Assembly: GCA_025617375.2 (NCBI GenBank)
Contig: JAMYGW020000010.1
Location: 1 to 64,000, forward strand
Reading direction: 5' to 3'
DNA length: 64,000 nt
DNA from: Acarospora socialis
Taxonomy: Eukaryota; Ascomycota; Lecanoromycetes; Acarosporales; Acarosporaceae
Shown here one piece after another: positions 25,526-37,071 of the stretch (the stretch's first letter is position 1; each line of letters begins with the position of its first letter). Under the pieces are notes generated by a model, which was not told where the DNA came from, searched no databases, and saw only the letters and a list, made by a program, of their open reading frames with translations. The translations under genes were made by a program, and so were the position numbers.

Positions 25526-28292
25526 ATGGCGCAGGCCCCAGAGACGGAGGACAACCACCCAATATACCGCTCCGGAGATTCGGTCCAAACTTCGATTGCT
25601 AAAGCACCTAAAGCAACCTTCAAACCCAAGTTGAGAAGTCGTGACAAAGATTCCGCTGCGTCAGCCAAACGGAGATGCGTCAGCACCGCTTGCATCGCCT
25701 GTCGCAGACGGAAATCCAAGGCATGTAGTCCTTCCAACCTATGACACGGCTCCATGCCTGACTCTTACGTACAAAATGTGACCCGTGCTGAGTTGGATGG
25801 ATGGCGTAGTGCGACGGCAACACGCCGAGTTGTGCCGCCTGCTCGTCCGTTTACGGGACTCAGTGCGTCTATGACCCAAACTCAGACCACCGGCGCAAGG
25901 GCGTGTACAAGAAGGATATCGACAACCTCAAAACCCGTAATTCGACCTTACAAACATTGATTCAAGCCATTCTGAATTATCCAGAGGACGAAGTCGCGGA
26001 GCTGATCCGGCAGATTCGAACATGCGAGAGCCTGGACGATGTGGCAGAGTCTATACTTGCCAAGGACAACAGCTTCGGGGAAGAAGAGGATGAGCTCGAT
26101 TCCCCTGTATACGGGAATGGCCTCCCGGCCAAGGTCCCTAAATTCGAAACGGAATTGTCGGGGAAAATGGGAGCGTTACGGCTGGACAACGGGTCGGTCA
26201 GGTTCATTGGAGGCACTTCGAATTTGATCTTCTTGGGTCCTGGCTCGGATGGGGAAGAGGCGGTAGCCTCGAGCAGCAGCGTTCAGCCATATAAGCAGCA
26301 AGAGGACCCAATTACCTCTTGGACCGACGTCACAGCGGACCCGGAACTCATCGTTCATCTGATGAACATGTACTTTACATGGCACTACACCTACTTCACG
26401 ACGCTGTCAAAACATCTGTTCTATCGGGACTTTCTCATGGGAAAGCCGACGCAAGAGACACGACGCAAAACCGAATACTGCACGTCGCTCTTGGTTAATA
26501 CAATGCTGGCTCTCGGCTGCCATTTTACCTCCTGGCCGGCAGCGAGAGCAGACCCGCAGGACTCTGCAACAGCCGGCGATCACTTCTTCAAGGAGGCCAA
26601 GCGATTAATACTGGAGAATGACGAACATGAGAAACCGAGGTTGGCCACGGTGCAAGCGCTCGCGTTGATGTCCGTACGCGAAGCTGGTTGTGGACGTGAG
26701 GCAAAGGGCTGGGTGTACAGCGGAATGAGTTTTCGGATGGCGTGCGATCTCGGTCTCAACGTCGGCTCCAGTGGTCTCACAGCCCATCGTGACTCCAGTC
26801 TGAATGAAGAGGAAGACGACGCCAGGAGAGTTACCTTCTGGGGTTGTTTTCTGTTCGATAAGTAAGTCTCGTCGCGAACCTGTCTTGACCTGTCCTGACG
26901 TAATTCTACTTGATAGGTGCTGGTCAAATTACCTTGGTCGTCAACCCCAACTTCCACTGTCGAGTATAACCGCGGCGAGATACGACGTATTTCCCGACGA
27001 GGACGCTGATATCTGGTCCCCTTATACTGATTCTGGTTTGAGCCAAGCGCATTCTCAACCCTCGCGAACGCGAGCGGTAGCCTTACAGATATCATTCCTA
27101 TGTGAAATCAGCAGTGATTTACTCATACATTTCTATCACCCGACGCATATCGATAAGCCCGTCGGAAGGCAAGCGGAACTCAAACGCCTGACCGAGCTGC
27201 ATACCAGACTCGAGGCGTGGCGCAAGAACCTGCCGAAGGAGATGGAAGCAAAGGAAGGCCAACTGCCCAGTGTGCTCGTTATGCAGTAAGCTATTAGAAG
27301 CGATTTCAACAATACACAAAGCAGATGACAGCTACTGATTCGGTGCCAGCATGTTTTTTCAACTACTTTTCATTCACCTGTATCGACCCTTTCTCAAGTA
27401 CAATCAGGCAACCTCCCCCTTGCCGGCTCATGTCTCACCACGCAAGATATGCACCCACGCGGCTGCGATGATCTCTAAGCTTTTGCGCCTCTACAAGCGG
27501 ACTCATGGTCTACGGCAGATCTGTAATATTGCTGTCTACATCGCCCACTCGGCCTGTACAATACACTTGCTTAATCTACCGGACAGAAACGCGAAAAGAG
27601 ATATTATACACGGTGTGAAACACTTGGAGGAGATTGCGGAGTCATGGCTCTGCGCACGGAGGACACTGGGTATACTGAGTACTCTGGCGAAACGATGGAA
27701 AATAGACATGCCGGAAGAAGCAGCTACGATTCTAGCGCGTACGGATGCCAGATATGGGCTCTACCATTCGGAAGGTCATCATTCCCCAAGGTCCGAGATC
27801 ATGTCTCCTGCACCCGCACAGCCATTGTCGCCACCTGTTCCCATGGCGGGCCAGAGCAACTTGATGGATGGGACGCGCGACCACGGCGATCTCATTGGCG
27901 GCAACCTCGCATCGATACACGGCGCCCAGCAACCTGGCCTACGTGTGTCCGTACACCCTTCTGCGACGGCCGAGCCACAACGGCTACCGCGGCCAAGCAG
28001 ATATGGTTTATCGCAGGCGCAAGAAGAGCTCTGGAATCAGGACGCGGCGTCGCGGGGAGCTGCTGCTTCGGCGCAAATGTCGCCTTCGACGCTCTTCGGT
28101 GGTGTTGATACACTCGTGCAGGACCACGAGGGCTGGTGGGTCAAGGACCAGTTCGTGTTGGAGCACGGCTTCGGCAACTGGAACGGTCTCGAGTCGGACA
28201 TGAACCTACTGGGCAACGGTGCGCCCGGCAGTGGATACGTTGTTGATGGGGTCAACTCCTACAACTTGAGCGAGAGCGATATGTATGTGTGA
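25526..28292 (+). CDS. Zn2Cys6 transcription factor with fungal-specific domain
   Basis: Exons 25526-25720, 25810-26861, 26917-27285 and 27350-28292 give 852 residues from the ATG at 25526. The binuclear zinc cluster is CIACRRRKSK joined to CDGNTPSCAACSSVYGTQC, split by intron 1. That intron begins GCATGT rather than GT (25721) and ends GTAG at 25809; the join restores the cluster, so it is an apparent GC-AG intron. A coiled linker (KKDIDNLKTRNSTLQ) follows, then the middle homology domain (YFTWHYTYFTTLSKHLFYRDF, WVYSGMSFRMACDLGLN, RRVTFWGCFLFDKCWS, LGRQPQLP) and a segment ending LSTLAKRWKIDMP. This pattern is typical of the NIT4/NirA-like group. It acts in the nucleus on CGG-type sites. The target pathway is unknown; nearby promoters at 13.5 and 18.6 kb carry such triplets. 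Confidence 0.88.
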
Positions 28293-28842
28293 TATGTGAT
28301 ATGGTTGTTTTATGGTGTGCAATTTAGCGTTACAAGCCTGTACTGGGTAACTTCATGACAGACAACGAACCATAAGGCCATTGACGTAATGATACCTACT
28401 GAAAGCAAGATGTTGTACTCGTGTCTACAATCGGAGACCAAACTCAAGGCCGTGGTCGGTCAGTCACCTATGCAAGGTTTGTTTCTTGTTCCCGTTACCG
28501 TCAATTAGACTGATATGGGCCCGATGGATCTGCTAATTAAGCCCTCAAATTCTTGGTAATATGTTGGTGTACGGGCATCGTGGAACGTGAGACGGTTGCT
28601 GCTCTCATTGGGCGTTGATGTAGGATGTAAGTATGTAATAATAATTCGAGTTCGAGAATCAAATATCTTACGGTACTTTTCATACTCTGGTAACTTATAT
28701 ATACCGTACCCGCACTTTAACCTCAATCCCGCGTCGCCTCTGAGTAAGGCATGTGAATAGCATTTTGGTGTGACTTACTTCCATTCCCTTCCCTCACCCT
28801 GTCTTTTTCATCACCGTCGCCTGCAGGAGCTACGACCTGAAT
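28293..28842. other. Intergenic
   Basis: This is 0.55 kb between the Zn2Cys6 and bZIP genes, both on the plus strand. Pyrimidine-rich sequence lies just before the bZIP start. No gene is seen. Confidence 0.6.
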
Positions 28843-29715
28843 ATGTCAAACGTTGTAAGTAGACGTCCCCTGGCGGATACTACTAGCCACTCAGCCCGGG
28901 CCCAAAGCAGTCACCGGCAAGTGGTCATTGGTTGACGATAGTTGCAGGAAAAGGCGAATCTTGCTCGGATTCGTGACAACCAGCGCCGGTCACGGGCACG
29001 ACGAAAAGAGTATCTACAAGAATTGGAGGGCAAATACCGCAATTGCGAGCTTCTCGGGGTCGAAGCATCCTCCGAGATCCAGGCGGCCGCGCGACGAGTG
29101 GCCGAGGAGAATAAACTTTTACGACTGTTGTTGCTTCAACGAGGCGTACCGGAGTCGGAGATCGATGATTATCTTGGGAGATCCTTCGACCAACATCAAG
29201 CTACATCCGGGCCGACTACGCTGGACTCGATGTTGAGTGCGCGCAAACCATGCAGTGGAGAGAGGCCTGGGTGTAGTCCTCACCTCTCAGCAAGCTCGTC
29301 AACTTCCGTTCACTCGAAGCCCATCTCAATATCGCCGCCAGTCGTTACAAATCTCAGTGCACATAGCCAACAAGGTCCTATAGTCTGGTCGGACCTGAGC
29401 CTGGCTACATCCGCTCAATTATACCCCGATACAGACGTGGTGTTCAAGGTCGATGACTTTTCGAGGACGGGCCACGAGTTAGCCCCCGCAGCTTCGGACC
29501 TTTGGCCTGAACCAACCAGTTATGAATTTTCCAAGGAGATCAATGTCGACGCTAACATGTCGTCTTGCACCTTTGCCACAAACATTATCCGGGATATGAG
29601 CACAGGCGTTAGCTCGGAGCAAGTCAAAGTGGAACTGGGTTGTGCTTCAGATATGGACTGTAAAGTCGACAACTCTACTCTCTTTCGAGTCATGGACAGA
29701 TATAGTGGGCAATGA
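28843..29715 (+). CDS. bZIP transcription factor
   Basis: A four-codon first exon (28843-28854, MSNV) is joined across a 93-nt intron (GTAAGT..AGTTGCAG) to 28948-29715, giving 259 residues. The basic region is DNQRRSRARRKEYLQEL, with the N-x7-R pattern that contacts DNA, followed by a short leucine-rich coil (EENKLLRLLLLQRGVPESEI). The rest is Ser-rich and disordered with a few acidic patches. This class (NQRRSRARRKEY) is common in filamentous ascomycetes and often lies beside metabolite genes. It should dimerise and bind DNA in the nucleus; targets are unknown. The tiny first exon is supported because it supplies the only nearby ATG in frame. Confidence 0.85.
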
Positions 29716-30307
29716 GAATAATGTGAACAGTCGTTGTCTGGTGGGTGGTGTCAGCAGGTTTCTTGGTGTCACCATAGACGAAGCATCGTCATCAATGCAT
29801 TGCAGTATTCTGGGGTACACGAATTACAGTATCTGAGCCTCAAAATGAACTCTAGGTGTCTAAGAGGTAGCACTGTATCCACCGCGTTGGGTTAGACGAA
29901 CCAACATTCCTGGCCGCAACCGGTCGGCTATCGCCAACAGCATCTTCTCAGTCCGGGGTTGCAAACCAAAAGATTACCCAGATGGATACTCTCCATTGGC
30001 GCTGGACGTTGTTGCGAAAGGACTATTTCGTGACCGCTTTCAGAATGCGGCCTACTTGATCGAGGTGCCTGACATAGTTGACCATATCCCAACAATTCGC
30101 TGCTTTCGTCTAATAGACAAAGTAGACAAAGAATGGATGTGATCAGCTCTCGTTCTACCTTTATGTTGCTCGAGAGACAAATCGCCATTGGTAGTATGCG
30201 CGACTCTTTGCATATACATCCTCGCTCACCAAGCTTGGGATATGTTGATGCCTCGTGGCTTCTAATTTCCAGAGCCAGCAGCAGACCTCAACGAAAAAGC
30301 AACGGCA
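29716..30307. other. Intergenic
   Basis: Short open frames on both strands, none protein-like. It contains the upstream region of the tandem C48-like gene. Confidence 0.55.
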
Positions 30308-33300
30308 ATGGCTCCAATCAGACCTTCAGGAAGGCCGAGTGCGATTGGAGATACAGGCCGTACCCCAGAAGAGCCATCTCAAGCCGACAACCAACGCTGG
30401 GACACGTCCTCTCTTTCTCTCGCATCACCCAACGCTCTAACGCCCATCGCTGTCCCAACGTTGGCTCCGATACCCTCTCCTCTCGCCATTTTCTTGGGGT
30501 CTGATGCGTGGCTTCTAAGACTCGTGGATGAGCGAGCATCACCTTGTGTAAGAGACCTTTTCGGCAGAATTCGACAAGTCAACTTGGACCAGGATGTAAA
30601 CTTCGATCTCTCGGAAATAATGCTTGTCGGTTCTCTCCCCACGATATCGCCGTTATCGGCAGATCGTGAGACTGCTTTCGTGGTTTACCTCGAGCGGCGA
30701 AAGCATGACATGGTAGAGGAAGAGCAAGGTCATGATCTCGCGACGAGCTTCGAGCTTCGATATGAGTGGATCCGCAACAATAACCACTTCATCAGACCGT
30801 ACGTCTCTTACTTATCTTAGCGAGAATGATCCTGATATAACGTTTCTAGTGACGCTGTTCGACCTATGTCTCGACGACCGTCAGCGCAGCCGGGCCAAGT
30901 CATGCCACGTTGGGGTAGTTCTTTAGAAATCAGAAGACTCCCCAGCACCAACTCCGCTGACGGCACGAGTCAGTGTTTCTTCATCTTTAATTCCGCCAGC
31001 ACGAGTCTGTGGGTCAATGGCGTAATGTACGGCACGAGTGCCGTCGTAGGTCCTTTACCCGACTTTGCCGTCATTGAGACTGGCAAGGCTGCAGTATTCT
31101 GGTGGCACACGGACAAGAGTATCGATTACTTACCCAGTCTGAAAGATGAGGTTTGATTTGTCTTAAGCTATCCTCCAGACGCTTTGCTGACAGCTGCACT
31201 AAGATTGGCGAGTCTAAGAAACGTCCTTTGAGTATCGGTGACGGCTACATGAACCTTGCCAACTTTTGCCCACCAAAGAAACAAAGATTGACTGAAGGTA
31301 AGCTTTTTCAGTCTCGATTTATTCCAGTCGTACTTTGAGAAGAGACGTTTAACAGGCTCTAGGGTCTGAACGTCCACGCGAAACGGCTGTGGTGGGGACT
31401 AGTCCTTCAGACGTACCCGCATCGCACCCAGGCCGACCTCCGAGGAATCCGTCGCCTCCACCTCTAGCGCCACCGCGAATGCCGCGACCGCCCCCAGGAA
31501 TCCATCCATGGCCAGGTCCACCGCGAAAGAGGGGCTTCGAGTCGCCCAAAGGACCCCCTCCACCGCCGCCGTTGGATCCTCCGAATAAGCCAGGTCAAAC
31601 CCCAAAAGTACCACCATCAGGCCCCGTCCCATCATCGGGCCCTCCACGACCGCAAACGCCGCCGCAAACGCCGCCGCAAACGCCGCCGCAAACGCCAGGT
31701 AGAATCCCAAAGCGACCGTCCTCAGGCCCTCCACCGCCCACGACACCGAAAACGCCAGAGAAACCCCCAAAACGACCGTCATCGGGCCCCCCACCACCTC
31801 CTACGCCGCCGAAAACGCCAGTTAAACCTCCAAAAAGACCGTCTTCGGGCCCTGCACCGCCTCCCACGGATCCGCCGAAGAAGCCAGGTAAAACCCGAAA
31901 ACGGCCGTCGTCAGGCCCTGCACCGCCGGTCAACAAGCCGCCAACCAAACGAAAGTCAACCTTGTTGGAATCTGTCTCCCGCTATAGCATAGCCGCCTGG
32001 CGGCATGAATTTCAGAGGCGCTTGAAAGAGATGCAAACTAAAGCATCCAAGACACCGGATGACGCCAACTCAGCCCACCAGGTAGTGTCCTCAGTCTTTG
32101 GATATGATGATCCTGCCATGGCAATCGCAAGTGTGTGGGAAGGTTTGAAATTTGAGGGCGTCAACTACGCATTTGGCGACCCCCGTCTTTTCCAGTATGC
32201 CAGGCGAATAATGTGGTTGAATTTGTCTTGTGTTGGAGCGCCCCATCCCCTGATAATGCCGTTGGTGTTCTCTGAGAGTTTCAAAGATCCTGAGCCCGAA
32301 GAGGAGACAGACGTGAAACCAGTTCCACCAACAAAGTCAGTCGACCAAATGAAGAAAGAGCAGCAAGAGATTCTCGACGCGGAACGCCTTGCTATCAAAA
32401 CGAGAATGGAAACCAAATCGGGCGCCGAAAGGTGGGACCCAGGACCTAAGCAGTTTGTTTTGGCACTTGCACAACGAGACCCCTCCAGCGAAACTGGGGT
32501 CTCGATAACGTACATGAACAGCGGATCGGTACCGTCACAAGGAATCATACGTGCAGCAGCTCGCAACATCGTCAGAAACTCATCCTGGATGCCTGAGGGG
32601 ACCTGGCTCAGCTTTTCTCGGGAAATTTGGCAGACAGTTCCCCAGCAAGCGGACAAGTCGACGGGTGGCACGAACCTGGTCATGAATGCCTGGGCTCATA
32701 TGTTGAACCTCATCGTCAATGAGACGTGGTCGATTTCGAGTGAGGAGCAGAACAAATTCTACGAAGAGGCCCGCACCGTCATCAACCTTGCTCTCCGGGG
32801 GCACATGAACGGCAACACTATCCTTAGCTTTCTTACAGGTTACGAGTATGCACGATATCAAAGCACAGCCCATGCTCACGAGCTCCCTCCAAATATGCAG
32901 TCTGCTTTCATGAACCATGATGTTCTAAGCGATATCGTGGATCGTATGAAAAAGGAGGACAACAAGGTAGGAAGTGGGCCTGCAGCACCTCCGCCCACTA
33001 CAGCACCTCCGACGGCTCCGGTGCCAAGCACTGGAACTGGGCCTATCGTCAAACCTCCATCGACCATTCAGAAGCCTCCATCGACCACTAATAAGCCTCC
33101 ATCGACCACTAAAAAGCCTCAATCGAACACTAAGAAGCCCGGGCCCCAACCCCCGCCAGCGTCAACCAGCGTACCAGCTGGTGGAATACGTATCAAGGGG
33201 AAAACCGAGTGGGCTACAAAATTGCAGAATAGCCTTGACGCTTGTCAAGCAAAGTACAAAGACCTGAACAAGAACGAGTTGCATACCGTCGCGAAGGAGG

Positions 33301-34355
33301 AACTCACGGACGAGGACGTTACGCTTGGCATCGCTGCGGTCTGGCGAGCCTTGTGGACTGATGACATCAGGTTCGCATTCGGTACAGCAAACCTATTTCG
33401 ACTTTCTCGAACACCATCAACCGCTAAAGATTGGCATGGTTTTGTGTCTATAGGCGCACCCAATGATTTCATCATGCCTCTGCTATTCAACCCTGACGAT
33501 ACTGAAGAAGGCGAGGAGCCAATCGGCGCTGAGCGTGCTGTAGGCCATTTTCTGTTGGCTATCGCTTCGCGAGACTCGGAAGACAGTACTACTGTCACTA
33601 TCCAGATCCAAGACAGTATGGAAGGGCATAAAGATCTGGATGAAATTCGGGATACAGTGCAGAACATCGTCCGGTATTCTGGGTGGATGGGCCTCACTCC
33701 GGAGGGCATGCCCTTGGATGTTCAGCCAACTTTTGAGGAGGAGGTAATCACCGTTCCGCAACAGACTGGCGTTATCGAATGTGGTTTCCATGTCATCTTC
33801 AATGCATGGGCATACATGCTCGGCATCCCAATCATAAACGCCTCGCAGCGTAGCGGTACGGGGCTAGGCTTACGCGACCGAGACTTTTATGCATGTGGCT
33901 TGCGCATGGTCAACTTGGCTTTAGGCGGGTGCCTGGATTCTACGACGATTCAGGCGTTCTTCAACCACTTCGGCTACTGTGAGGCTCAGGATCCCGCGGA
34001 CGCCGTTCAGGAGATGGACTCGGTCATGATGGACGATGATATCCTCGCTGATATCATTCAAGAGATCGTAGACGAGGAGAAAGCAACCGCAACATCGAAG
34101 GGTCCTGCTCAAGGTCCCGCTCAAGGTCCCGCTCAGGGTCCCGCTCAAAATGGTAATGGAGATGGTAATGGAGATGGCAATGGAGATGGTGAGGAAGATG
34201 GCGAGGGAGGTCGCAAGGAAGATGGTGATGAAAACGGTGATGATGGTGGCGATGGAGATGGCAATGAAGATGGCAATGACGGAAAGGCTGAAAATCCCGC
34301 TGAAGGTTCGAATAACCCAATGTTCAATATATTACTGCATCTGATGGGTCTTTAG
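30308..34355 (+). CDS. Large protein with two tandem Ulp1/C48-like protease domains
   Basis: Exons 30308-30798, 30850-31150, 31204-31297 and 31363-34355 keep one frame and give 1,292 residues. Residues 1-295 form a unique region; SLWVNGVMYG followed by ETGKAAVFWW faintly recalls an FHA fold, and PPKKQRL near 290 looks like a nuclear signal. Residues 305-490 are proline-rich with five KRPSSGP-type repeats. Domain A (about 493-830) and domain B (about 905-1201) align throughout: AIASVW/GIAAVW, GAPHPLIMPLVF/GAPNDFIMPLLF, IVRNSSWM/IVRYSGWM, VPQQ, NAWAHML/NAWAYML. Domain B keeps His1024 (GHFLL), Asp1046 (IQDS), Gln in VPQQ and Cys1102 (ECGFHV), the Ulp1-type set. Domain A has Gln659, Asn681 and Gly730 instead, so it should be inactive. 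The tail is GPAQ repeats plus Gly/Asp/Asn. A SUMO- or ubiquitin-like protease role is inferred. Intron 2 (GTTTGA donor) is the weakest junction. Confidence 0.75.
31650..31696 (+). repeat. 12-bp tandem repeat in proline-rich linker
   Basis: Nearly four perfect copies of CCGCAAACGCCG encode repeated Pro-Gln-Thr-Pro. A repeat this exact inside a coding exon is likely to vary in copy number. Confidence 0.8.
34102..34149 (+). repeat. 12-bp tandem repeat coding Gly-Pro-Ala-Gln
   Basis: Four copies of GGTCCYGCTCAR occur in the C-terminal tail of the C48-like protein, followed by GGAGATGGTAAT-type repeats up to about 34,275 that code Gly-Asp-Gly-Asn. Confidence 0.8.
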
Positions 34356-34787
34356 ATTAAACGATCCAAGAGCACCGAAATCTACACAACAAAGATCTAT
34401 ATTTCCAGAGAGCGGTTTGAGCTTGCACCTAGTCGTCCTTGAATGTTTATCGCAGTTAGGAGTCAGGGCATGGGTTATAACGATGATATACTATACAAAG
34501 ACCCCTATCCAGTGGGATAGATGACTAGAGTTTGCGATAGTAGAATCAATAATAAGACTTATAATTCATTACTCAATGCCGAGTACATGTGCCATCGTCA
34601 GCGGGTTTTTTTGTAGTCCAAAAAGGCTGTAGCTAAGGAGTGGATGATTATACATAATAACGAGAAACCCAACCGAACGTCACAACCCTACCCGACTCCC
34701 AAAGATCCTTGCATGTCCCACATGCACGCTCCGAACTCGTACCACATCCTGCACCATACTTAGACTATTCGAAGCACCAAACCGACT
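34356..34787. other. Intergenic
   Basis: This is the 3' region of the C48-like gene and the promoter of the thioredoxin-like gene. No gene is seen. Confidence 0.6.
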
Positions 34788-35614
34788 ATGGTCGCAACCA
34801 CAGCCTTCCGATGCTCCGCCCGACCAAAACACACCTCCACCCTCCTGCACCTATGCACAACAACCCGGCACTTCAGCGCAACAGCGCGCCAACTAGCCAA
34901 GAACCGCATCTTCACCTCGTCCGTACCGCACTCTCCCTCCCTTATCTCCCTCTGCAACCCTCCCTTATCTCCCACATACAACTCGCCCCCCAGCTAATCC
35001 CCTCCCCCCATCGCGCGGGTCACAGGATCCGCAACGAAGAAGAAATGACCTCGCTCCTGCTGCTCTCGGCCTCGAACCGCCGCCCGCTCCTAACGCTCTG
35101 GACGGCGTCGTGGTGTCCGTCGTGTAAAGTGGTGGCGCCTGTGGTCCGCGAGCTAGTTGAGAGCGAGGGCGTGGGCGAGGAGGAGGGGGGCGTGGGGTTT
35201 GCGGAGGTGGAGTTCGATGCGCCGACGCTGGGGGCCGGGGGTGGCTTCGGAGGGGAGGGGGTGGGGATGCGATTTATGGTATGTGTGTTCTGTTGTCGGG
35301 GCGTTTGTTTGCTTTGAGGGGTGGGTATGGATACGGGGGGAGGGCAGATGGATGGGTGGATGGAATGGGGAACGAGGGCTGATGATGGGGAATGTGCGGG
35401 GTGGACATAGATCAATTCGATACCGACGCTGTTGTCGTTTAGTCGGCAGGAAGCGCAGCTGGGTACGAAGGTCACGAGCGTGGAGAAGATGAAGGATCGA
35501 GAGTTCTTGAGGGCGTGGATTCGAGAGGAGGCGAGGAGGGGTGGGAAGGGTGGTGCTGGAGGCGGTGGTGGGGGTGGACTGTTTGGGAAGTTTTTTGGGT
35601 TAGGGAAGAGCTGA
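34788..35614 (+). CDS. Mitochondrial thioredoxin-like protein
   Basis: Exons 34788-34918, 35026-35278 and 35411-35614 give 195 residues. The N-terminus (MVATTAFRCSARPKHTST, then RHFSATARQLAKNRIF) is Arg/Ser-rich without acids, typical of a mitochondrial presequence. The core has LLTLWTASWCPSCKVVAPVV, where WCPSC is the redox CxxC, then INSIPTLLSF containing the cis-Pro, and a Gly-rich tail. Intron 1 begins GTCCGT and ends GGGTCACAG, restoring IFTSIRNEEE. The middle is unusually rich in Gly/Glu because of a G-rich tract. It should reduce disulphides in mitochondria; the partner is unknown. Confidence 0.82.
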
Positions 35615-36067
35615 TGTCAAGTAAAAGGGGGAGGGGGAGGGTGTACGATAGTGGCTACAAGGGATATTGGCCTTTCTGTTGGGGCGGGGTTGTCGGAGTG
35701 TGTGGGCGGAAGAGTTTGGGACTACCGGGTAAGGAGTACTCGACGTTGCGACCTAATCGACTGTACAGACTGATGGCGCGAGCGAAACGGCAGTAGAGAC
35801 GTATCGTGCCGTTTTCGCAAGATCCGCGGATATGACTGTGCTCAGAACACTTGGTTATGCCTCGATTGGACTGGGTGTCGGTTTCGAACTGGAGTACATA
35901 GAGATGCGAGTGTCCGACTCATATAGCAGATGTTTATGTACAATCGTAGCGCCGTCATGTTGTCGATCAGCAGCTTCTCTGCGCGCACTCCGAACGCGAA
36001 ACAAAGTCCGCTCATCATCATTCTCCCGCCAGATAGTGTCATCACAGTGCGGAATTCCCAGTCGGCC
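35615..36067. other. Intergenic between convergent genes
   Basis: This 0.45 kb lies between the 3' ends of the thioredoxin-like gene (plus) and the small membrane protein gene (minus). No gene is seen. Confidence 0.6.
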
Positions 36068-36469
36068 TCACTCCCCTGCTGATTTCGACCTACTCCTAAC
36101 CGTCTCGACCCTGACCCGGGGCGTATTCCCCTCCTCCGTCTTCTTAAACCCCAACACCTGCCCAATCAGCCCTCCCGGTTTCGGCACCGGACATTCCCTC
36201 GCCTTACGCGCCATCGCCGCACCCTCATCTAGCAAGTCGTCTGTGGTCGGTTCGCCAAACCTCTCATCTGTATTCGTCGATCCTACAGCAGCTCGTTTCC
36301 GCCTCCGTCTCCGCTGCCCGTCGCCGAGATTGCCGGCATCTGCGAAATCGGTTCGGGGCGCTGGACACGGTAGGATGTGGGGCATGCCCACTACAAGGAA
36401 GGAGGCTAGAAGCGTGGTCGTGAAGAGAGAGGTCGTCCAGCGGGAGCGTGGGTGGAGGTGTGAGGGCAT
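36068..36469 (-). CDS. Small membrane protein of unknown function
   Basis: From the ATG at 36469 it is 133 residues: MPSHLHPRSRW, a hydrophobic segment (SLFTTTLLASFLVVGMPHIL), then PCPAPR, a basic run RRRRRKRA, and a conserved-looking block ECPVPKPGGLIGQVLGF. Open frame continues upstream to 36556 without an ATG, so 36469 is preferred. The arrangement of an Arg-rich N-terminus plus one span suits a mitochondrial inner-membrane assembly protein, but this is inference. No intron is needed. Confidence 0.6.
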   Translation of the reverse strand: MPSHLHPRSRWTTSLFTTTLLASFLVVGMPHILPCPAPRTDFADAGNLGDGQRRRRRKRAAVGSTNTDERFGEPTTDDLLDEGAAMARKARECPVPKPGGLIGQVLGFKKTEEGNTPRVRVETVRSRSKSAGE

Positions 36470-37071
36470 GGTGGGTGGAGGTAATGGCGGTTGTGCGAGT
36501 GCACGCTTCGGTGGGATTGTAGCGGCTATCGGATGGCCATGAGGCTGGGTCTCCAATACATCAGAATTTATATCTCCGTCAAAGTAGTGTCACGTCTCTA
36601 GGACACGTTCCTGGCACTGATTTGAAGATCCATCATGGTGGGATCTTGCGGAGATGGGATGAAGCTTTGAGGTTTAGCGTCACCTCGGTCAGTCTGCAAA
36701 CGATCTGATACGCGAGCTTTGATAGCGACAGATGATGCGCCAATAGTAATACTCAGTAACATCCACAGATATATCTCAAACGAGCAGTATTGCGTCCGAG
36801 ATTAAGTATTATCGTGTAAAGAGCTCTTGAAAAAATACTGTCTTGTTTCATTTTGACTATCTTGTACTCGCCGCTTTCGCATTGTACTGAGTATCCTGCG
36901 CAGCTGAGATCCGCAAGCCATCTACAACGCGCCAACCGGACGAGATACGCGGATATCAAACACGCATTCAAGAAGACCAAGGCTAAAGAGTAGAGCTTGT
37001 GCATATCTGACAGGTGCACTCATCGGTAAGGGCGTGCGCCGTCCGCAGACGCTCATGGTGAAGGGGCAAAC
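36470..37071. other. Intergenic, divergent promoter region
   Basis: This lies between the starts of the small membrane protein and the PP4 gene. No gene is supported. Confidence 0.6.

Follow-up and report, generated by a model that had tools for sequence, protein, structure and literature searches.

The first 64,000 nucleotides of contig JAMYGW020000010.1 of the ascomycete Acarospora socialis (assembly GCA_025617375.2), referred to throughout as the window, contain a predicted four-exon gene at positions 30308-34355 of the + strand (1293 codons including the stop, 1292 amino acids) whose product includes two copies of one domain of about 300 amino acids. The second copy, domain B, keeps the catalytic residues of clan CE cysteine proteases and is C48-like, whereas the first, domain A, has lost three of the four. 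The A-B layout itself is well supported. The reading favored here, which is given about an even chance of being correct, is that of a C48-like cysteine isopeptidase of two domains, of which A would be an internal pseudoprotease that binds the modifier or controls B; both the role of A and the type of modifier are what we infer from the evidence presented below. It is the live/dead pairing inside a C48-like enzyme that looks unusual.

Two homologous domains in one reading frame

Domains A (31959..32960, + strand, amino acids 495-828) and B (33201..34082, + strand, amino acids 909-1202) match each other at an expect value (E) of 2e-34 in BLASTP (98/337 identities including gaps, 29%) and of 6.7e-31 in phmmer, and 98 of the 277 ungapped aligned pairs are identical (35%). 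An earlier note on this DNA had claimed homology of the two domains over about 300 residues and the replacement in A of His, Asp and Cys by Gln, Asn and Gly, and both observations were reproduced. In the residue-by-residue alignment the catalytic columns read (B/A) His1024/Gln659, Asp1046/Asn681, Gln1096/Gln724 and Cys1102/Gly730, with the clan CE set His1024-Asp1046-Gln1096-x5-Cys1102 kept in B and the His, Asp and Cys positions lost in A, where Gln724 is retained. In domain A the His strand is also preceded by a charged insertion of some 33 residues, and the motifs VPQQ, NAWAxML and NLALxG are common to both domains. These comparisons support the view that A and B are duplicates of one domain of about 300 amino acids, one with its catalytic set intact and the other with a degraded one.

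The pattern H-[WF] ... DS ... P-x-Q-x5-C-[GA], modelled on clan CE, was defined after seeing B, and F was admitted for its sake. It matches six of six reference C48 domains and a single place in the six-frame translation of the window, and turned up in 2 of 100,000 shuffled versions of B, so that its presence in B exceeds chance expectation.

Both domains lie in a frame of 1000 codons that runs uninterrupted through 31353-34355 (+ strand), and three predicted GT..AG introns (30799-30849, 31151-31203 and 31298-31362) link this frame to an ATG at 30308. The exon structure, the start codon and the expression of the gene are predictions made from the DNA. Given that the splice sites are predicted only, the gene model might be an artefact that merges two separate genes or joins exons 1-3 wrongly; this is scarcely credible, as the common frame leaves only exons 1-3 at risk. 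Alternative splicing choices in these exons are possible and would leave both domains unaffected, and exon choice is irrelevant to the linkage of A and B because the two sit in one uninterrupted frame.

The C48-like character of domain B

Peptidase_C48 (PF02902) is the only Pfam match of domain B, with E 0.0091 and 16.3 bits for the whole domain and E 0.0026 and 18.1 bits for a trimmed core aligned to profile positions 100-188. Because these scores are below the curated cut-off of 20.7 bits, B is classed as C48-like rather than placed within the family. On a profile made of six C48 domains, of which four are encoded in the same genome and two were taken from PDB alignments, B scored 7.9 bits, the aligned stretch being P-x-Q-x5-C; none of 2000 shuffled versions of B reached this value (1112 scored, the best at 6.8 bits) and the reversed sequence obtained -1.3 bits. 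QXXXXXC is the signature given for the C48 enzymes of A. niger, of which there are three (PMC7804941).

The predicted order of elements in an AlphaFold model of B, strand (His)-strand (Asp)-helix-helix (Cys), agrees with clan CE. When this model was compared with the PDB by Foldseek, the first six ranks were taken by ChlaDUB (E 0.012), OtDUB, a "de-sumoylating protease" (5lnb, entered with no family name), NopD, SENP1 and NopD again, and proteins of the ubiquitin/SUMO-protease kind account for 14 of the best 50 of 481 matches (E<=10). Domain B resembles the C48 family (Ulp1/SENP/DEN1, PF02902, clan CE) in its H-D-Q-C order, in Q-x5-C-G, in the DS at the Asp, in its only Pfam match and in the proteins that are the first structural neighbors of its poor model. 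It differs in its score below the curated limit and in the Phe after the His, and the protein as a whole differs in domain A, which lacks three of the four catalytic residues, and in a tandem layout with proline linkers and an acidic tail.

Several of these results weigh against the assignment or restrict it. The independent E-value of B on the six-sequence profile was 0.83 in a set of 4003 sequences. The AlphaFold model was computed with an alignment of two rows and is poor (mean predicted local distance difference test score, pLDDT, 41.3; predicted template modelling score 0.34), and the tool itself warns that Foldseek matches from low-confidence models are meaningless. None of the 481 matches reached E<=0.001, the best being the 0.012 mentioned above; the query-normalised template modelling scores of ranks 1-6 lie between 0.21 and 0.27, and at ranks 7-14 stand enzymes and complexes of unrelated kinds. 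Finally, the catalytic His of B is followed by Phe1025 (QF at the equivalent position of A), whereas Trp is found there in six of six reference C48 domains, a residue that is common in C48 although its requirement is not proven. SENP proteases have a tryptophan-covered tunnel (PMC10919355), and with Phe in place of Trp a tunnel of the usual SENP type should not be taken for granted in B.

Searches by sequence with other collections gave no clan CE relative. A PDB sequence search with B (E<=10) returned four matches, all to proteins other than clan CE proteases, the best being a designed TIM barrel at 1.4e-4, a value summed over four weak repeats; with A and B together the only PDB match was a haemagglutinin (0.32), and NCBIfam gave for B one weak match to an unrelated family (0.033).

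Taken together, several weak and agreeing lines suggest that B is C48-like and may have a clan CE fold. The label "Ulp1/C48-like" that the earlier note had given to both domains can therefore be kept for B on the Pfam, profile and Foldseek lines, and extends to A only via its homology to B. In the comparison of the predicted structures ubiquitin/SUMO proteases rank first for B, none of them significantly, and none appears among the best 50 matches of A. The designation as a SUMO protease was not sustained: nothing in the sequence tells the modifier, and B has Phe where all six references have Trp.

Since B keeps the catalytic residues, it is taken as the cutting domain, and it is probably, though by no means certainly, catalytically active. 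It is also conceivable that neither domain is an enzyme and that both are binding modules, B either retaining its residues by chance or lacking activity for want of the Trp and a proper tunnel. The HF of B and the QF of A in place of HW, together with the Pfam score below the cut-off, would fit this explanation, which is nevertheless considered improbable: B has all four catalytic residues in the clan CE order with the Q-x5-C spacing, only 2 of 100,000 shuffles match the motif (chosen after the fact), and Phe for Trp is a conservative change.

Domain A and the proposed function

The C48-like kinship of domain A follows from its homology to B, which is its sole basis. By itself A gave no match in Pfam or NCBIfam; on the six-sequence C48 profile it scored -1.6 bits, a value equalled or exceeded by 781 of 2000 shuffles of A. 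Its AlphaFold model is poor (mean pLDDT 37.3), and the 93 Foldseek matches to this model (E<=10) start at E 0.57, with no clan CE protein among the best 50. These results are to be set against the favored reading. Its reading frame points in the other direction. The 1002 bp of A are without a stop, whereas none of 1000 base shuffles was stop-free, a rough null in which decay after duplication is not modelled, and the other forward frames contain 18 and 15 stops. Synonymous codon choice was scored against four neighboring frames and compared with a composition-matched null; along the protein the z values are 2.7 in the N-terminal region, 5.9 in linker 1, 2.3 in A, where the choice is somewhat coding-like, -0.5 in linker 2, 4.3 in B and 1.2 in the tail. 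From the open frame and the codon choice A therefore looks maintained, with a signal weaker than that of B; the values for A, lower than those of B and linker 1, and the little signal in linker 2 and the tail are further points to be set against the favored reading. A would thus appear to persist as a protein domain and may still be folded.

At 35% identity drift alone would change three of four given positions, which is the number of catalytic losses seen in A; such drift-level change shows loss of catalytic constraint in A, not a gained role. A may have lost catalysis under relaxed selection and be a passive dead copy, a mere spacer or in-frame passenger that neither binds nor regulates. Besides the agreement with plain drift, the weak codon signal of A, the failure of both Pfam and the C48 profile to recognize it, and the location of the gene about 30 kb from a contig end with an AT-rich first 3 kb are in line with this explanation; young, dispensable genes are common near such contig ends. 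It is less easily reconciled with a domain that has diverged strongly and yet shows no stop or frameshift and shares motifs with B, and it is regarded as rather unlikely, though as a possibility to be taken seriously. If A were passive, the protein would be a lineage-specific protease of ordinary type whose duplicated domain has decayed.

According to the favored reading, that of an isopeptidase with a built-in pseudoprotease, duplication of a domain of about 300 amino acids would have given rise to a two-domain clan CE-type cysteine protease. B would be the working enzyme, with Cys1102 as nucleophile, His1024 and Asp1046 completing the triad and Gln1096 in the oxyanion hole, and would most likely remove a ubiquitin-like modifier (SUMO, NEDD8 or ubiquitin, undecided) from proteins. 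A, which lacks nucleophile, base and acid, would most likely still bind. It might hold a modifier beside B, whether this is attached to a substrate or belongs to a chain, or, as a second option, pack onto B and set how active B is; with the long proline linkers both domains would have reach. That A binds substrate or regulates B, as the earlier note had suggested, is plausible, and the prospect of A actually being shown to bind or regulate may be put as possible, with the balance somewhat against it. A more explicit model, in which A, joined to B by a flexible proline arm, would hold on to one modifier in a chain or on a modified protein while B cuts the next, must be called unlikely in this precise form; if it were true, a single polypeptide would both recognize and remove ubiquitin-like modifiers.

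Precedents exist for both options. As a dead domain acting as binder, the catalytic region (region 3) of yeast Ulp1, inactivated by C580S, binds SUMO, SUMO conjugates and chains (PMC3216068), although this variant lacks the Cys only and domain A lacks three catalytic residues. As a dead partner acting as activator, the pseudo-deubiquitinase KIAA0157 switches BRCC36 on (PMC4579573). KIAA0157/Abraxas-BRCC36 and OTULINL, an inactive paralogue of a deconjugase (PMC10318531), resemble the present case in that a dead homologue of a deconjugase is involved, activation being described for BRCC36; they differ in belonging to the JAMM or OTU families and in consisting of separate chains. Single chains that combine an active domain with an inactive homologous one are described for carboxypeptidase D and one-chain M16 peptidases (PMC11266112) and for polyserase-2 (PMC1435904), which are metallo- or serine proteases with other folds and substrates. 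"Undescribed system", as the protein had been presented, is accordingly too strong a term, given that live/dead pairs in other proteases and pseudo-deubiquitinase partners are already known. No active and inactive C48 domain in one chain was found among the best matches listed from the titles and abstract openings of the open-licence literature, and the available part of the account of pseudo-deubiquitinases in PMC10919355 names no member of the SENP family.

A related setting is that of extra Ulp1-like genes in fungi. In Colletotrichum, Ulp1 genes are located on minichromosomes, one of them with a tandem paralogous gene (PMC10779208), and in Fusarium zanthoxyli ULP1 is among the domains enriched in its unique genes (PMC11110190). 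As in the present case, an Ulp1-like gene lies in a part of the genome that is variable or specific to the lineage; unlike the present gene they are separate genes, and no live/dead chain is mentioned in the available portions of these descriptions, by which alone they were compared. Deletion of one Colletotrichum minichromosome Ulp1 gene left growth, conidiation and virulence unimpaired (PMC10779208), and such extra genes may therefore matter little, a point against the favored reading. In the best-explained case of a pseudo-deubiquitinase among those considered here, the dead protein and the JAMM deubiquitinase that it partners are separate chains. A live/dead C48-like pair that is covalently linked by nature would make it possible to ask in one protein whether the dead sister aims or switches the live one, and would also offer a handle on the Ulp1-like genes that sit unexplained in the variable regions of fungal genomes.

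Relatives, remaining parts and genomic setting

All of the evidence comes from one genome, which is a further restriction on the favored reading. Searches of this genome with B, with A and with the N-terminal region found this gene only; since the search scores the best candidates only, copy counts are lower bounds. A PF02902 search of the genome gave five matches at four other places and missed the present gene. One of these loci (L001) is Ulp1-like, with Ulp1/SENP chains as PDB relatives; two of the matches (L002 and L004) lie in one frame at one locus, which we take to be Ulp2-like judging by its insert; L003 is a further match. The fourth locus (L005, G000:C14:94274-94624) is a second non-canonical C48-like gene, with 25.3 bits, over the Pfam cut-off, and an H-D-Q-C motif. 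Aligned with A and B by hhalign, its H, D, Q and C line up, weakly (probability 0.6%, E 0.094). When A and B were compared by tblastn with the five C48 matches of the genome, the matches of B included its P-x-Q-x5-C stretch, in L001 at E 0.23 and in L003 at E 2.8, and in L002/L004 the stretch around the Cys (E 2.3); these values are non-significant and other, chance matches score alike. When A and B were used on the 3.35 kb around L005, tblastn missed even the known C48-like domain of that locus. An A+B profile matched by pattern 56 stretches in IMG/VR and 20 in GTDB genomes, none of which was confirmed; these collections cover viruses and prokaryotes, and the negatives therefore say little about fungi.

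The gene might also be a remnant of a mobile element, or a domesticated product of one, carrying a C48 protease (Crypton-type or similar), as some oomycete Cryptons encode C48 peptidases (PMC3212892). This origin is judged very unlikely. The DNA of the gene is single-copy in the genome by a search that skips simple repeats, with low-copy or decayed elements still possible; the 13 inverted-repeat pairs in 28000-37000 (15-24 nt, 71-93% complementary) include no convincing terminal pair; and the guanine-plus-cytosine (GC) content at the gene is ordinary, although no search with transposase-specific models was made.

Exon 1 (30308..30798, + strand, from the ATG at 30308) is defined by its open frame and splice sites. 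Exon 2 (30850..31150, + strand) continues the N-terminal region, joining in frame after a 51-bp intron (GTACGT...CTAG), and exon 3 (31204..31297, + strand), joined in frame after a 53-bp intron, has the basic stretches KKRP and PPKKQR. The N-terminal region encoded by these exons (amino acids 1 to about 290) has no recognized domain: Pfam gave no match at E<=1 for exon 1 or for the region as a whole, and on a sub-piece Laminin_G_3 only (E 0.12). An FHA-like fold had been suspected by eye for amino acids ~165-265 and was dropped, as that Laminin_G_3 match was all that Pfam gave there. BLASTP detected no match of the N-terminal region to A or B at E<=10, and there is therefore no sign of a third copy of the domain. 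Basic stretches occur at amino acids 269, 289, 350, 474 and 491, among others; they would suit a nuclear protein and may serve as nuclear signals.

Exon 4 (31363..34355, + strand), preceded by a 65-bp intron, is a single open frame with both domains, the linkers and the tail, and ends in a TAG at 34353-34355. Linker 1 (31374..31958, + strand, amino acids 300-494) is proline-rich, with tandem repeats of a 63-bp unit (3.9 copies, 31680-31924, 77% matches) and of a 12-bp unit (3.9 copies, 31650-31696). Linker 2 (32961..33200, + strand, amino acids 829-908) is rich in proline and threonine and has a 21-bp unit in 4.1 copies (33054-33139, 89% matches). The acidic tail (34083..34355, + strand, amino acids 1203-1292) is Gly/Asp/Glu-rich and contains 12-bp-based repeats. 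The proline repeats between the domains and the Gly/Asp tail noted earlier are thus real and are accompanied by tandem DNA repeats, of which those at 31680-31924 and 33054-33139 may differ in copy number among strains.

The window starts at base 1 of a contig of 1.65 Mb (C10) in a genome of 31.1 Mb and 38 contigs. The Fungal_trans, TBCD and RSN1/PHM7 genes that it contains and the 51-65 bp introns of the present gene would suit a filamentous ascomycete. The GC content of the window is 28-30% in the first ~3 kb, 41% in 2-4 kb and 48-61% beyond, and is ordinary around the gene; the AT-rich contig end (1-3000) is possibly DNA altered by repeat-induced point mutation, and an exact triple TTAGGG does not occur in the 64 kb. 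Upstream of the gene a transcription factor frame with a Fungal_trans domain (25810-28292, Pfam E 3.4e-34) is preceded by a Cys-rich stretch that by eye suggests a zinc cluster, and a frame at 28942-29715 has by eye a bZIP-like basic region, NLARIRDNQRRSRARRKEYLQELE, with no Pfam match at E<=0.001. Directly downstream lies a thioredoxin-like frame with WCPSC (34661-35317), scoring 21.3 bits in Pfam, under the cut-off of 23.5. TBCD and RSN1/PHM7 genes are also present in the window.

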